Shown piece by piece: positions 52,473-59,265 of a stretch of DNA of 64,000 bases. A program made the translations under genes and the position numbers. The stretch is taken from contig JAPLKU010000012.1 in NCBI GenBank assembly GCA_026387935.1, positions 62,001-126,000 of the forward strand. Direction: 5' to 3'. The notes under the pieces were generated by a model. The model was not told the DNA's origin. It worked only from the letters and a program-made list of their open reading frames with translations, and made no database searches. The number at the start of each line of letters is the position of its first letter. The stretch's first letter is position 1. This stretch comes from Gemmatimonadota bacterium (GTDB taxonomy: Bacteria; Gemmatimonadota; Gemmatimonadetes; Gemmatimonadales; Gemmatimonadaceae).

Positions 52473-53006
52473 ATGGTGGAAGTCATCATTTCCAAGCTGG
52501 GGCACGACGGCCAGCAAAAGACCTTCGTCGTCGTCCTTCAGGAAAAGGATGGCACTCGCGTGCTGCCCATCTGGATCGGCCGGCCCGAAGCAGAGTCCAT
52601 CGCGGCGCACATGCACGGCGTGCCGCGTGAGCGTCCGATGACGCACGATCTGGCCAAGGCGCTCGTCGCCGCGCTCGATGGCACGCTGACGAAGGTCGTG
52701 GTCACGCGCGTGGAAGAGCACACCTACTATGCCGAGATGCACCTGGTGCGCGCCGGCGAGGCGTATGTCGTTGACGCGCGGCCTTCGGATGCCATCGCCA
52801 TCGTATTGCGCTGCGCGGCACCGATCTTTGCGGCGGAGTCGCTGTTGAATGACTACGAGCAGATGGCGGCTGACGAGGCCGATGCCGGTGAGGAGGTGCC
52901 CAGCGCCGGCGATGTCGCCGCCGCAGAGTCGGGCAGCTACGCCGAGAATCTCCGCCGCCACCTCGAGCAGTTGGATCCAGAGGACTTTGGCAAGTTTTCG
53001 CTCTGA
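52473..53006 (+). CDS. DUF151 bifunctional nuclease-family protein
   Basis: 177-residue protein. The conserved DUF151 core covers about 1-125, with LPIWIGRPEAESIAAHM (about 29-45), RPMTHDLAKALVAAL and VDARPSDAIAIVLR. DUF151 members have been described as nucleases active on DNA and RNA; the in vivo role is unclear. The C-terminal 40 residues are acidic and variable. A good Shine-Dalgarno sequence (GGGGAGG) precedes the ATG. It overlaps the next reading frame. Confidence 0.85.
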   Translation: MVEVIISKLGHDGQQKTFVVVLQEKDGTRVLPIWIGRPEAESIAAHMHGVPRERPMTHDLAKALVAALDGTLTKVVVTRVEEHTYYAEMHLVRAGEAYVVDARPSDAIAIVLRCAAPIFAAESLLNDYEQMAADEADAGEEVPSAGDVAAAESGSYAENLRRHLEQLDPEDFGKFSL

Positions 53007-54849
53007 GTGGCTCAGTGCGGCAGTGTCGCTTGCGGCCGCCGGCTCGCTGATCGACGCGCGCGCCCTGGCTGTTCAAGCCGGTGCACTGGCGGCCGAACGG
53101 CGCTCGGTCGCGGGGCAGGTGATCGTTGTTCATGGCGCCGCGAAGCGCCCCGCCGCAAACACCTGGGTCACGCTCCACCGGATCGGCCCCGACTCGGCGG
53201 CTCCGCTCGATTCCGTGAAGGTCGGGGCGGATGGAGCGTATCGATTCCAGTATCGGCCTTCCGGCGATTCCACGGCGGTCTACCTCGTCGCGGGTCGCTA
53301 CGCCGGAATCGCGTACTTCTCACCGCCGCTGCGCGCTCCGGTGGTCACCGGCCCCGATGCCGATCTCATCGTGTATGACACCTCGAGCACCGGCGTGCCA
53401 GTCACCAACGCCAGCCGCCATGTGATTGTTGGCGCCGCTGACGAGAAGCGACGTCGCGACGTGATTGAGGTCTTCATCCTCGCAAATGGCGGCGACCGAA
53501 CGCTTGTGGCGTCCGCCGCGCACCCGACGTTCACGGTCAAACTTCCTGACGGAGCGGCAGACGCGGCCATTGGCGACGGGGAAGTGAGCGCCGAGGCAAT
53601 GACCTTTGCCGGTGGTGTCGTCCGGGTCACGGCCCCGATCGCGCCCGGCACCAAGCGACTGTCGTTTACGTACACACTGCCGGCCGGCGCACCGATTCAT
53701 CTTGGCGCCGCCGATTCCACTGAAGTATTCGAGATTCTTGTCGAGGACGCGGAGGCTACCGTGCAGGGGGGGTCGGTTCGCGAAGATGCGCCTGCAACGA
53801 TCTCGGGGCGCACCTTCCGCCGGTTCTCGGGACAGCATATTGCCGACGCTGGCAGCCTCACGATCAACGCGCCGACCGGCTCGGGCACACGCCTCGGCAC
53901 ACCGGCCATCGTCGCGATCATTCTCGCCGTCGCGCTCGGCGGGATTCTCGTCGCGTCCCTGCGCGCCGGCGCGCCGCTGCTGGTCGCCGTCGCGCTCACA
54001 CTGTTCACGGCAGGCTGCGGCGGCACCCAGGCCGCGGCGCCCTCAGCGTTCATCGTCGACGATTTTGGCGACACGGTTCGTATCGGACCAGCGCAACGCA
54101 TCGTATCGCTCAATCCCGTGGTGACGGAGTTTCTCTTTGCCGCGGGAGCGGGCGCTCGCGTTGTTGGCCGGACGCACTGGGATCACTATCCGCCTGCCGC
54201 CGAAGCGGTGGCAGACCTCGGCAATGGCATCGGACCGAATGTCGAGGCGGTCGTCGGCGTGCGACCCGACCTGGTGATCCTCTACGAGAGCCCGTCCAAT
54301 CGTCGAGCGGCAACCGGCCTCCAGCAGGCAGGTGTGCGCACGCTGAGTATCCGCACCGACCAGATCGCCGACTTACGCCGCCTCGCCACGCTCTTCGCTG
54401 CGGTCACCGGCGACTCGGGCGGAATCGCTGTGGTGGACACCGTCATGCAGTCGATTGACCGGGTGAGGAAGATGCCACGTCCGGCCAAGGCGCCGCGCGC
54501 CTTTTGGGTGCTGTTTGACGGCGATCCGCAACTCTATACGCTTGGCCGCGGCAGTTTCATGCACGAACTCCTTCTCGTCGCCGGCGCGGAAAATGTTTTC
54601 GCCGATCTCGAACCACCCTCCGCGCAGGTGTCGCTCGAAGAAGTCGTCAAGCGAAACCCGGACGTTGTGATTGTCGGCCCGGTGACGGCGAAGCGGATTG
54701 GCTCGACCGTCGCGTGGCAAGCGGTGCCCGCCGTGCGAGCTGGTCGCATCGCGCTCGTGGATTCTGCGCTCGTCGGCCGTCCGGGAATGCGCCTGGGCGA
54801 GGCGGCGCGTCAGGTCAGGCGCGTCCTCATCGGTGATACGGTTCCGTAG
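52987..54849 (+). CDS. Beta-sandwich domain fused to a BtuF-like ABC substrate-binding protein
   Basis: One uninterrupted frame of about 620 residues with two unrelated halves. An N-terminal, signal-like segment precedes a carboxypeptidase-regulatory-like beta region (about 40-110) and a further beta-rich part. At about 308-328 is a membrane segment (TPAIVAIILAVALGGILVA), directly followed by a lipoprotein-like signal ending LFTAGC (Cys about 344). From about 358 the sequence is a BtuF/FecB-type binding protein (RIVSLNPVVTEFLFAAGAG, VVGRTHWDHYP). The start is uncertain: TTG 52987 and GTG 53023 are both possible. Next to btuC and btuD, it should supply their binding protein for corrinoid or ferric siderophore. 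No internal stop, ATG or GTG separates the halves near the lipobox. Confidence 0.75.
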   Translation: MASFRSEWLSAAVSLAAAGSLIDARALAVQAGALAAERRSVAGQVIVVHGAAKRPAANTWVTLHRIGPDSAAPLDSVKVGADGAYRFQYRPSGDSTAVYLVAGRYAGIAYFSPPLRAPVVTGPDADLIVYDTSSTGVPVTNASRHVIVGAADEKRRRDVIEVFILANGGDRTLVASAAHPTFTVKLPDGAADAAIGDGEVSAEAMTFAGGVVRVTAPIAPGTKRLSFTYTLPAGAPIHLGAADSTEVFEILVEDAEATVQGGSVREDAPATISGRTFRRFSGQHIADAGSLTINAPTGSGTRLGTPAIVAIILAVALGGILVASLRAGAPLLVAVALTLFTAGCGGTQAAAPSAFIVDDFGDTVRIGPAQRIVSLNPVVTEFLFAAGAGARVVGRTHWDHYPPAAEAVADLGNGIGPNVEAVVGVRPDLVILYESPSNRRAATGLQQAGVRTLSIRTDQIADLRRLATLFAAVTGDSGGIAVVDTVMQSIDRVRKMPRPAKAPRAFWVLFDGDPQLYTLGRGSFMHELLLVAGAENVFADLEPPSAQVSLEEVVKRNPDVVIVGPVTAKRIGSTVAWQAVPAVRAGRIALVDSALVGRPGMRLGEAARQVRRVLIGDTVP

Positions 54850-55824
54850 ATGCGCGCCGGCACCTGGTTTGCACTCGTACTCGCCCTGATCGCGGCCGCG
54901 CTTGTCTCGCTTGCCGTCGGTCCCGTGGCCATTTCGCTGACAGACATCTGGGCGGCGCTTGGCGGGACGGGTGAGGCACAGACTATCGCCATTATCCAGA
55001 CCATTCGATTGCCGCGCGTGTTGCTCGGTCTTGCGGTCGGGGCTGGACTCTCCGTGAGCGGTGTGGCGCTGCAAGCGACGCTGCGGAATCCTCTCGCCGA
55101 GCCCTATCTCCTCGGGGTGTCCGGGGGAGCCGCCGTCGGCGCGGTGCTTGGGACGTCGCTCGGATGGATGCCGCCCGGCGCGATCGCGCTCGCGGCATTC
55201 GGTGGAGCCGCGGTGGCCGTGCTGCTCGTGCTCGCCGTGGCGCACGCCGCCGGTGGAGGCAGTAGTTCTCCAGTGTTAGTCATGGCCGGTGTGGTGGTCG
55301 GCGCATTCGCGAATGCCGCAATCCTCGTGGTGCTTGCCGGCGCGCCGGCCGGGGCCGTGCGTGATGCCCTCTGGTGGATGATGGGGTCGCTGAGCGGGGC
55401 CACCTGGCAGGCAGCGGCATGGCTCGCGCTCTTCGTGGCCATCGGCTCGGCGGCACTCTGGATTCGGGCGCGCGAGATCGACGTCCTGTCGCTCGGCGGC
55501 GACGCCGCGGCCGCGCTCGGTGTGGATGTGGACCGAGCGACACGGACGGTCTTCCTCATTTCGGCGGTGCTCGCCGCCGCCACCGTCTCCGCGGCTGGTC
55601 TTATTGGCTTCGTCGGACTGCTCGTGCCGGCGATTATCCGTGCGCTCGGTGCACGCACCTCGCGAAGTACGTTGGTAGCAGCAGCGATAGGTGGCGCCGC
55701 GCTCGTCGTCGTCGCCGATGTCGTCGCGCGAACGGTTCGATCACCCGCTGAACTTCCGCTCGGCGCGGTCACGGCACTCGTCGGCGTGCCGTTCTTCCTC
55801 GCGCGTATGCGGAGGAGCGCATGA
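54850..55824 (+). CDS. btuC: BtuC/FecCD-family ABC transporter permease
   Basis: Inner-membrane permease of 324 residues with about nine or ten hydrophobic segments. FecCD signatures include RLPRVLLGLAVGAGLSVSGVALQATLRNPLAEPYLLG (about residues 55-91, seen in parts), GDAAAALGVDVD and GLIGFVGLLVPAIIR. In this family B12 and siderophore permeases are alike; the BtuF-like partner and the B12-dependent mutase in the window favour B12 weakly. It begins on the base after the binding protein stop and overlaps the ATPase by 4 bases. Confidence 0.87.
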   Translation: MRAGTWFALVLALIAAALVSLAVGPVAISLTDIWAALGGTGEAQTIAIIQTIRLPRVLLGLAVGAGLSVSGVALQATLRNPLAEPYLLGVSGGAAVGAVLGTSLGWMPPGAIALAAFGGAAVAVLLVLAVAHAAGGGSSSPVLVMAGVVVGAFANAAILVVLAGAPAGAVRDALWWMMGSLSGATWQAAAWLALFVAIGSAALWIRAREIDVLSLGGDAAAALGVDVDRATRTVFLISAVLAAATVSAAGLIGFVGLLVPAIIRALGARTSRSTLVAAAIGGAALVVVADVVARTVRSPAELPLGAVTALVGVPFFLARMRRSA

Positions 55825-56609
55825 TCCGCCTCGATGGCGTGATCATTCGATATCCGCGTCAGGCCGCACCGGCTGTTGACGGCGTGACGTTCAACGCCGC
55901 GCCCGGCACGATTACGGCGATCGCCGGACCAAACGGTAGCGGGAAGAGCACGATCGTTCGGGCGCTGCTCGGCCGCGTGCCGCTCGAACGGGGGAGCATC
56001 GCCGTCGGTGGCGATCCCATCGCTGGGCTCGATCGCCGCGCCGTGGCGCGACGCCTTGCGGTGGTGCCCCAGCGAGAAGAACCAATCTTTCCGCGCGTGG
56101 TGCGCGACTTCATCTCGCTCGGCCGATTCGCACATGGCAGCGTGTGGGGCGGAATGTCAGCTGACGACCATGCTGCGGTAGATGCGGCCGTGCGCCGTAC
56201 GGATGTTGGCGTCTTCCTCGACCGGCGCACCGACGAGCTCTCCGGCGGCGAATGGCAACGCGTGCGCTTGGCGCGCGCGCTTGCGCAGGGGGCCGGTGCG
56301 TTGGTCCTTGATGAACCGAACTCCTTTCTCGATATCGCGCACGAGATGGTGCTCTTCGAGTTGCTCGACAGCGTCGCGCGCGACGGCGCCGCTGTCTTGC
56401 TGATTTCGCATCAACTCAACCTCCTGGCGCGCTTCGCCTCGCGGCTGATTCTCCTCTCGCATGGGAAAGTCGTCGCCGACGGCGCGCCGGCCGACGTCAT
56501 GACCGGCGATCAGCTGGAGCGCGTCTACGGCTGGCCGGTACTGGTGACGCGCGATCCCGCCGTCGGCGCGCCGATGCTGATTCCCATGCGGCGGCGTGGG
56601 CCCCAGTAG
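55821..56609 (+). CDS. btuD: BtuD/FecE-family ABC transporter ATPase
   Basis: Cytoplasmic ATPase of 262 residues. Walker A is GPNGSGKST (about 35-43), the Q-loop is VPQREEPIFPR, the ABC signature is LSGGEWQRVRLARAL, and Walker B is ALVLDEPNSFLD, followed by the switch His in LLISHQLNL. It completes an importer with the two preceding genes. Substrate assignment (B12 or ferric siderophore) is by context only. Confidence 0.87.
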   Translation: MIRLDGVIIRYPRQAAPAVDGVTFNAAPGTITAIAGPNGSGKSTIVRALLGRVPLERGSIAVGGDPIAGLDRRAVARRLAVVPQREEPIFPRVVRDFISLGRFAHGSVWGGMSADDHAAVDAAVRRTDVGVFLDRRTDELSGGEWQRVRLARALAQGAGALVLDEPNSFLDIAHEMVLFELLDSVARDGAAVLLISHQLNLLARFASRLILLSHGKVVADGAPADVMTGDQLERVYGWPVLVTRDPAVGAPMLIPMRRRGPQ

Positions 56610-56632: not shown

Positions 56633-57412
56633 GTGAGCCAGCTCGCAACCCCGGCACTCGTCCTCCATACGTTCGATTACCGCGAAACCTCGCGAATCGT
56701 GCGCCTGGTCACACGCGAGCACGGCGTACTCTCCGTCGTCGCCCGTGGCGCGAGGCGCCCCAAGAACAAGTTTGGTGCGGCGCTCGATCTCTTTGCGTCC
56801 GGTATTGCGCAGGTGAGCATGCATGGGTCGCGCGATCTTCATGCCCTCACCGGTTTCGATGCGAATCGCTCACGTCCCGAGCTGGCACAGTCGCTCGACA
56901 AGTTCGGCGCGGCGAGCGCCGTCGCTGAGTTCTGCATGCGGTTTGGGCAGGAATCGGAGACGGGGCACCTGTACGAAACGGCGATTGCGGCGCTCGACGC
57001 CATCGGTGCTGCCGGCAAGGACGATGTGCCGGCCGTGTCGGTTGCGTGGGTCTGGCGTTTGATCGCCGAACTCGGTTTCGCTCCCGCGCTTGAGCTGTGT
57101 GCCTCATGCCACGCCGTACTGCCGCCGGATGCGGAGGTCATCTTTCACCACCGTGCCGGCGGTGCGCTCTGCGCCACATGTACCACGCAGGCTCGCGGCG
57201 GACGACGACTGCCGGCCGCGGCCCGTGCGACCCTCATTGGTTGGATGGCCGGCGCCAACATGCCGGCGGATGCGCGCGCGATTCGGTCGCACCTGAGGTT
57301 GCTGCGCGAGTTTCTGGAGGAACACCTCGGTGATGGCCGGCCGCTCCGCGCCCTCATCGCGTGGGAAGAGCGGCAGCAATCGCGAGTTGCCGTCAGCGCG
57401 CCGGACACATGA
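56633..57412 (+). CDS. recO: DNA repair protein RecO
   Basis: Recombination mediator that helps load RecA on SSB-coated DNA; 259 residues. The N-terminal OB fold has [23 protein letters not shown] (about 9-31, seen in parts) and [12 protein letters not shown] zinc module is formed by CASCHAVLP and CATC (about 155-182). The protein is helical beyond that. GTG start; overlaps selB by 4 bases. Confidence 0.9.
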
Positions 57413-59265
57413 TTCTCGGCACGGCGGGCCACATCGACCACGGTAAGACGGCCCTCGTTTGCGCGTTGACGGGTGTTGACACCGATCGGCTTCCAGAGGA
57501 AAAGCGCCGTGGGATCACCATCGAGCTCGGGTTCGCGCCACTCGTGATTGACGGGCTCGCGCCCATTGGCGTGGTGGACGTTCCGGGACACGAAGCGTTC
57601 GTGCGCACGATGCTCGCCGGCGCCACGGGTATCGATCTGGCGCTGGTCGTGATTGCGGCAGACGAAGGCATCATGCCGCAAACGCGAGAACATCTCGCGA
57701 TTCTCGAGCTTCTGGGTGTGAAGGCCGGCGTCGTCGCGCTCACCAAGTCCGAGCTTGTTGACGTCGAGTGGGCGGAACTCGTCGACGCCGACGTGCGCAA
57801 GACCCTTGCCGGCACCGCACTCGCGAACGTGCCAATCATCCACTGCTCGGCGCATACCGGTGTGGGGATCGATGAACTCAAAGCGGCGATTGCCGCCGCG
57901 GCGAAAGGAGTTCCCGCGCACGCCGCCGACGATCTCTTTCGAATGCCGATCGACCGCGCCTTCTCGGTGAAGGGAACTGGCACCGTGGTGACCGGCACCA
58001 TCTGGTCCGGCGCGCTCGCCGTGGATGAAGCGGTGGTCCTTCTGCCGCGGGGCCTCGACGCCCGGGTTCGCGGCGTCGAACGCCATGGCCAGCCAGTTGC
58101 CGAGGTCATTGCCGGCGCCCGCGCTGCGATTGCACTCGGTGGTGTCGATCTCAACGAGATCGATGGGCGCGGAACGGTGGTCGTGCGAGCGGCCGGTCCG
58201 TGGGTGGCGTCGAGTGTTTTCCGGGCTGACCTCGTGCTGCACGCGGACGCGCCGCGCATTGGCCCGCGAACGCGCGTGCGATTCCATCTGGGAACCGCTG
58301 ACGTGGCCGCGCGACTCGTCGCGACGGGCGGCGCTGTCGCTCCCGGCAATCGGATGGCCGTCCGCATCGCGACGGACTCGCCTGTCGTCGCACGCGCCGG
58401 CGATCGGTTCGTAATTCGCACGAGCTCTCCGGCGGCAACCATCGGTGGAGGTGTGATTACCGATGCCGATCCGCCAAAGCGGCGCGCCAAGCCATGGCCG
58501 TCTCCGTCCGCAACTGATGCGCAGCGACTGGCCTGGATGTTGGCAGAGTCGGGTGGGAAGGGCATGGCGGTCTCTTCGCTGCCGATTCGTATCGGCGTGC
58601 GTGAATCCGCCGTCGCGAAACTCCTGAAATCGGCGAAGGGCGCCGCTCGTGTTGGAGAGCGGCTGTTTGATGAAGCCATCGCAAAGGTCGTCGAGCGTGA
58701 GATCCTCAGTCGCGTTGACGCCGGGCATCGTGCGCAGCCTCTGGAGCCAGGACTTCCGGCGCAGTCACTCCGGTCAGCGCTGCGCGTCGCGCCTGAGCTG
58801 GTCGATGCCGTGATCGCACGGCTCGTGTCGCGCCACGCAATTGTCGTGACCAGTGGCGTTGTGGCACGCGCGGATTGGAAAGCCGGCGGCGATGGCGCGG
58901 ATTCAAAACGGGCAGAGGCGGTGCTTTCAGCGATTCGTGGGGCCGGCAATACGCCCAGCTCCGTTGAAGAACTCGCAGCGGTCCATGGCAAGGATGTCCT
59001 TGCCGTACTTAAGCATCTGGCTCGCCGTGGAGACCTGGTCCAGGTGGCTCCGGACCGGTTTTATGCTCCAGCGGCGGTGGCCACGCTCGTTAAAACCATA
59101 CGAGCGGCACTCGCGGCTGGAGATGGCCTGACTGCATCTCAACTCCGTGATGTAACAGGACTTACAAGAAAGTATCTAATCCCATTTCTCGAGTATTGTG
59201 ATCGAATTGGGGTTACAACACGCCGGGGCGACCTACGGGTCTCCGGTCCACACCTCGGCACCTGA
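57409..59265 (+). CDS. selB: Selenocysteine-specific elongation factor SelB
   Basis: EF-Tu-like GTPase delivering Sec-tRNA to UGA codons with a SECIS element; 618 residues from ATG 57409. G1 is [13 protein letters not shown] (about 4-16), then the Switch [18 protein letters not shown] and a T/NKxD-type ALTKSE loop. Domains II and III follow, and the C-terminal winged-helix repeats end in [16 protein letters not shown], a strongly SelB-like segment. The last 220 bases are less GC-rich than the rest of the gene. selA, selD and tRNA-Sec are not seen in the window. Confidence 0.92.

Follow-up and report, generated by a model that had tools for sequence, protein, structure and literature searches.

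The window, a stretch of 64,000 nucleotides from a Gemmatimonadota bacterium, contains a single open frame spanning 52849-54849, in which the likely start is the TTG at 52987 (LASFR..). This start overlaps the 3' end of the upstream nuclease gene, and gene 1 of several relatives opens likewise, with LASS or LESS. The frame joins a secreted beta-domain protein, the product of what we call gene 1, to a BtuF-like binding protein (Table 1). That the two share one frame had been claimed from the sequence alone and is confirmed, the frame being open throughout and present in single copy; the sole match to the fused protein in the source genome was the window frame itself. In Pfam the fused protein was recognised only by Peripla_BP_2 (residues 372-593, E 6e-24). 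Among named genomes, the closest relatives are metagenome-assembled Gemmatimonadetes/Gemmatimonadaceae, which makes an origin in that family probable.

Table 1. Features of the fused gene and its neighbours, in window coordinates
Feature	Position	Strand	Basis
Bifunctional-nuclease-domain gene, upstream conserved neighbour	52473..53006	+	PF02577; same neighbour in relatives
Fused gene	52987..54849	+	620 residues, TTG start; open frame, single copy
N-terminal signal peptide, ~residues 1-33	52987..53085	+	Sequence pattern; model helix 6-36; cleavage site by eye
Small beta-domain, residues 39-111	53101..53319	+	Model pLDDT >90; CarboxypepD_reg-like in relatives
Second beta-sandwich, residues 136-297	53392..53877	+	Fold like ribophorin I / M1 aminopeptidase N-domain
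Transmembrane helix 1, ~residues 304-326	53896..53964	+	Gene 1 C-terminal anchor; hydropathy, models
btuF lipoprotein signal h-region and lipobox, ~residues 330-343, with Cys344	53974..54018	+	Invariant Cys; hydropathy, model
BtuF-type binding domain, residues 366-620	54082..54846	+	Pfam PF01497; PDB profile match
BtuC-type permease	54850..55824	+	PF01032 (FecCD); NCBIfam BtuC models best but below cut-off
BtuD-type ATPase	55821..56609	+	PF00005 (ABC_tran)

Gene 1 consists of a signal peptide, two beta-domains and a transmembrane helix, followed in most relatives by a cytoplasmic helical tail (IAALD..RA.LK..). It represents an uncharacterised family present in 256 of the 298 genomes of the phylum sample. 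The N-part was modelled as residues 1-324 with 45 relatives in the alignment (mean pLDDT 91). CarboxypepD_reg (PF13620) weakly matches 27 of 46 family members at E<=0.1 (best 7e-05), and at this threshold it gave no match in residues 39-111 of the window member. The second beta-sandwich resembles ribophorin I (VIA Z 12.4) and the N-domain of M1 aminopeptidases (VIA Z 11-12), a likeness of shared fold only. With ribophorin I/Ost1, a subunit of the eukaryotic oligosaccharyltransferase, the match extends over the following helix; the ribophorin-type chains have 12-14% identity to gene 1, and a common fold is no proof of function or membership. A search of the PDB gave no convincing sequence relative of gene 1, and a scan of genome contigs with the N-part as query gave no match. 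The position of gene 1 between the SAM-cycle genes and btuFCD is conserved, and a link to the cell-envelope side of B12 or methionine metabolism is only a guess. At two loci of the sister family (L098, L115) the order is metK-ahcY-nuclease-gene1-riboswitch-btuFCD, where ahcY, placed after metK and before the nuclease gene, is an adenosylhomocysteinase-type gene identified by eye.

The BtuF half scored 85.1 bits with PF01497, above the curated cut-off of 27.5. The NCBIfam BtuF equivalog NF002894 was the best model, yet its 92.9 bits lie below the cut-off of 234. The family profile matched solved vitamin B12-binding proteins in the PDB, and this match, together with the riboswitches at orthologous loci (see below), suggests that the BtuF half binds cobalamin. 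The permease and ATPase genes lie directly 3' of the fused gene, matching the context of a binding protein. The locus thus resembles E. coli BtuFCD (BtuF 1n2z, 5m34) in its binding-protein fold and its FecCD permease and ABC ATPase neighbours. However, the E. coli-type BtuF is normally a separate protein, whereas in the window it forms the C-terminal portion of a longer frame, and the BtuF of the window's order is a lipoprotein, unlike that of E. coli. Importer function is to be expected since the genome encodes proteins with B12-binding domains. Further downstream, a SelB-type elongation factor gene (57361-59265) follows recO.

The conserved family residues are kept in both halves. Between the window genome (G000) and its relative G003, pN/pS was 0.27 for BtuF and 0.41 for gene 1, with dS near saturation; the values for the fusion are not higher than those of split pairs such as G003-G005 (0.42 and 0.62). 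By these measures both halves look functional.

Split and fused forms among relatives

Gene 1 and btuF adjoin across the order, and in other genomes 108 of 109 gene 1/btuF pairs were split, with a single fused pair in G001. The 109 pairs comprise 46, 19 and 44 new pairs from three samples. Of the 60 loci in the first census, 14 had only one of the two genes and were set aside, as was one of the 20 loci in the second, which was without btuF; in the third (80 loci), 12 were without gene 1, and 24 of the remaining 68 repeated loci already sampled. Redundancy was filtered out only by comparing the third sample against the other two. Irregular loci scored as split were those of G004 (genes 5.5 kb apart), G016 (btuF interrupted) and L223 (gene 1 frame interrupted). 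In G016 (L076) the btuF match falls into pieces in different frames, whether from genuine disruption of the gene or from misassembly. At one further locus (L080, G020) there is no btuF at the usual place and gene 1 is followed directly by btuC, while at three others (L101, G041; L119, G053; L117, G057) a riboswitch lies between gene 1 and btuC and a btuF-like gene is found elsewhere.

G001 belongs to the same genus as the window genome, and its joint differs from that of the window: the helix is followed by a loop rich in Arg, then by a short hydrophobic stretch and Cys. The fused frame reaches the contig end inside btuF; a second G001 contig, which overlaps that end by ~177 nt with two mismatches, carries the remaining btuF and btuCD. 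In a tree of five neighbouring proteins, G000 grouped with G003, and these were joined by G004 and G005 (support 100). Since G001 lies outside this clade, two independent fusions are the simplest reading, and the G001 fusion apparently arose independently of the one in the window. A single ancestral fusion of the two is unlikely: G003, G004 and G005, which group with the window genome, are split and have a riboswitch before btuF. The cytoplasmic tail is absent from G000, G001, G003, G004, G005 and several others, which suggests that within the genus gene 1 lost its tail earlier than the fusions arose.

The riboswitch and the missing stretch

A cobalamin riboswitch (RF00174) lies between gene 1 and btuF in 42 of 46 mapped pairs. 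In a first test 10 of 12 loci were positive, both misses being G001, and in a second set 17 of 20, one of the misses being without btuF. The pairs without a riboswitch were the fused pair of G001 and the split, closely spaced pairs of G039, G049, G055, G293 and G071. Close split pairs without a riboswitch (L097, L108, L112, L137 and L154) show that the switch has been lost repeatedly with no fusion. Since the loss recurs at split loci, loss of the riboswitch alone is not the cause of fusion. At 38 of 63 split loci tested (L063, L067, L091, L092 and others) a conserved element, CTCGGGGGAGG..GTGGC (Shine-Dalgarno and GTG), was observed 3' of the riboswitch. Its GTG is btuF's own start in some loci; many others have a short unconserved leader frame beginning there, as though the btuF start had moved downstream of a riboswitch-controlled one.

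Both fusions are without a local riboswitch. The window contained no RF00174 match at the gathering threshold, and a search around the locus likewise gave none at E<=10. Elsewhere in the genome a single cobalamin riboswitch was found, on another contig, before a TonB-dependent receptor gene for which the best family is the B12 receptor TIGR01779, below the model cut-off. Movement of the riboswitch within the operon is rejected on these results, though the multi-genome search used stricter filters, by which weak matches can be lost. G001 likewise has a riboswitch before a B12-receptor-type gene (best family TIGR01779, below cut-off), and G003 has both, before btuF and before the receptor. A cobalamin riboswitch (RF00174) before btu genes is a known system (mBio 2022, PMC9600662), and it is present at this locus in most relatives; in the window, by comparison, the riboswitch appears to have been deleted along with the gene boundary.

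The interval between the final Arg of the helix and the lipobox Cys measures 54 nt in the window against 458 nt in G003, the closest relative, which makes the net loss 404 nt. Compared with relatives, the window is missing the riboswitch, the tail and stop of gene 1 and the start of btuF. Aligning the joint to G003 at the DNA level put the helix in the wrong place and yielded no breakpoint. The sequence-only reading had offered either a new architecture or a gene junction lost recently or by sequencing error, and held that separate genes in relatives together with a missed indel would count against it. The comparison supports a probable loss of the boundary through a ~0.4-kb net deletion, rather than a lost stop or a one-base error. 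Relatives are indeed nearly all split; however, a missed indel cannot explain the 404 nt. A one-base sequencing error at the joint is rejected since ~0.4 kb, including the riboswitch, would have to be restored to give two genes. Overall, that interpretation is partly supported.

The joint between the two halves

The paired hydrophobic segments described at the joint from the sequence alone are borne out by hydropathy, with adjacent stretches at ~304-326 and 330-343. The leftover lipobox proposed for the second segment is also there, as TAGC with Cys344, a residue invariant in 31 of 31 aligned BtuFs, the window included. Since both halves belong to conserved protein families and this cysteine is invariant, the frame is not a chance read-through. 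Thr at -3 is unusual, occurring in 2 of the 31 aligned BtuFs, again including the window. The equivalent of Cys344 is retained in both fusions, with Gly or Ala at -1. Helix 1 occupies the position of the helix in split gene 1 proteins. AlphaFold2 gave helices at 305-326 and 330-341 with a break at 327-329, at moderate confidence (pLDDT ~57-69); the second helix is only 12 residues long. The full-length model was built on BtuF relatives only, since a mixed alignment of gene-1-only and BtuF-only sequences was misaligned, and its N-part is poor (mean pLDDT 66). Since the riboswitch, the gene 1 tail and stop and the btuF start are all gone, what had been read as a membrane hairpin is the anchor helix of gene 1 abutting the signal peptide of btuF.

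Binding proteins of the OpuA and GlnPQ types are fused to their transporter. The window resembles them in that a binding protein is joined to membrane segments in one chain, but its fusion partner is an anchored beta-domain protein, not a transporter. In lipoprotein substrate-binding proteins such as MetQ of Neisseria meningitidis (PMC8416018), the lipobox Cys likewise stands behind a short hydrophobic signal; in contrast to such lipoproteins, the window lipobox is not N-terminal: its cysteine is residue 344, preceded by a different protein with its anchor helix, and the joint has no usual start codon.

Origin of the fusion and fate of its product

We propose, with a probability of about 0.57, that a loss of ~0.4 kb created the fusion, that its product is a two-protein precursor cut by Lgt and Lsp at Cys344, and that local B12 control was lost. 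The loss, between co-directional genes, would have removed the tail and stop of gene 1, the riboswitch and the btuF start codon, leaving the C-terminal helix of gene 1 in frame with the btuF lipoprotein signal peptide. The fused product would be exported by its N-terminal signal peptide, helix 1 would run inward across the membrane, and the second, short segment would return to the outside, in the orientation of a lipoprotein signal peptide. The joints of the window and of G001 would both fit this out-in-out path. Lgt would then lipidate Cys344 and Lsp would cut before it, giving a membrane-anchored beta-domain protein and a normal lipoprotein BtuF to serve BtuCD. The btuFCD genes would have lost their local B12-responsive control and would probably be expressed together with the genes upstream; the receptor gene still has its riboswitch. 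In its general form, that riboswitch loss twice independently made a precursor gene in which an internal signal peptide, placed by the preceding helix, is cut by Lgt and Lsp to release BtuF, the proposal is tentative, at slightly under even odds.

The main rival, which we regard as unlikely, accepts the same deletion and leaves the product uncleaved, so that a tight helical hairpin would keep BtuF attached to both the membrane and the beta-domain protein. The back-to-back hydrophobic segments and the helix break between them in the model are consistent with such a hairpin, and a tether would be tolerable as BtuF of this order is membrane-anchored anyway. Processing is also questioned by the unusual Thr at -3 and by the loop between the segments, which is very short (~RAGA) and has one Arg, so that the segments might insert otherwise. 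However, the second segment is short (12-14 residues), the lipobox Cys is kept in both fusions, and genes for both Lsp and Lgt are present in the genome. So short a segment could still plausibly serve as a substrate for Lgt and Lsp, and the product may therefore either be cut or stay tethered for good. BtuF is probably still working, most likely after Lgt/Lsp processing and otherwise as a tethered domain.

It is improbable that BtuF is made separately from a rare internal start, with the long frame mostly read through. CTG codons at 53959 (LRAGAPLLVAVALTLFTAGC), 53977 and 53980 are in frame at the joint, and a peptide begun at a CTG would resemble a signal peptide. CTG is, however, rare as a start, no clear Shine-Dalgarno sequence was seen upstream by eye, and there is no in-frame ATG, GTG or TTG from 53762 to 54117. 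An assembly artefact, the true locus having two genes and the missing 0.4 kb, is no more credible. The genome is a draft of 28 contigs and nearly all relatives are split, but the frame stays open across the loss and the core of the signal peptide is complete, G001 has a fusion at this place too, joined differently, and the window joint lies away from the end of its 261-kb contig. That the fusion marks a decaying, non-functional locus is most improbable of all: btuF has been lost or moved from its position in G020, G041, G053 and G057, but here the frame, btuC and btuD are intact, residues are conserved, pN/pS is low, and the sole other Peripla_BP_2 protein of the genome, on another contig, is a much weaker match.

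In the open-access literature, with few subscription journals covered, we found nothing on processing at an internal lipobox and no fusion through riboswitch loss with an internal lipoprotein signal; the component parts are already known, and as far as these sources extend the combination was not found in print. The locus points to a route to binding-protein fusions, in which deletion of a regulatory RNA between genes can join two proteins with little harm when an anchor helix lands beside a lipoprotein signal peptide. The window and G001 offer two natural constructs for asking if an internal signal peptide is acceptable to Lgt and Lsp. The organism is also a case in which B12 sensing by a riboswitch persists at the outer-membrane B12 receptor but is gone from the inner-membrane importer.
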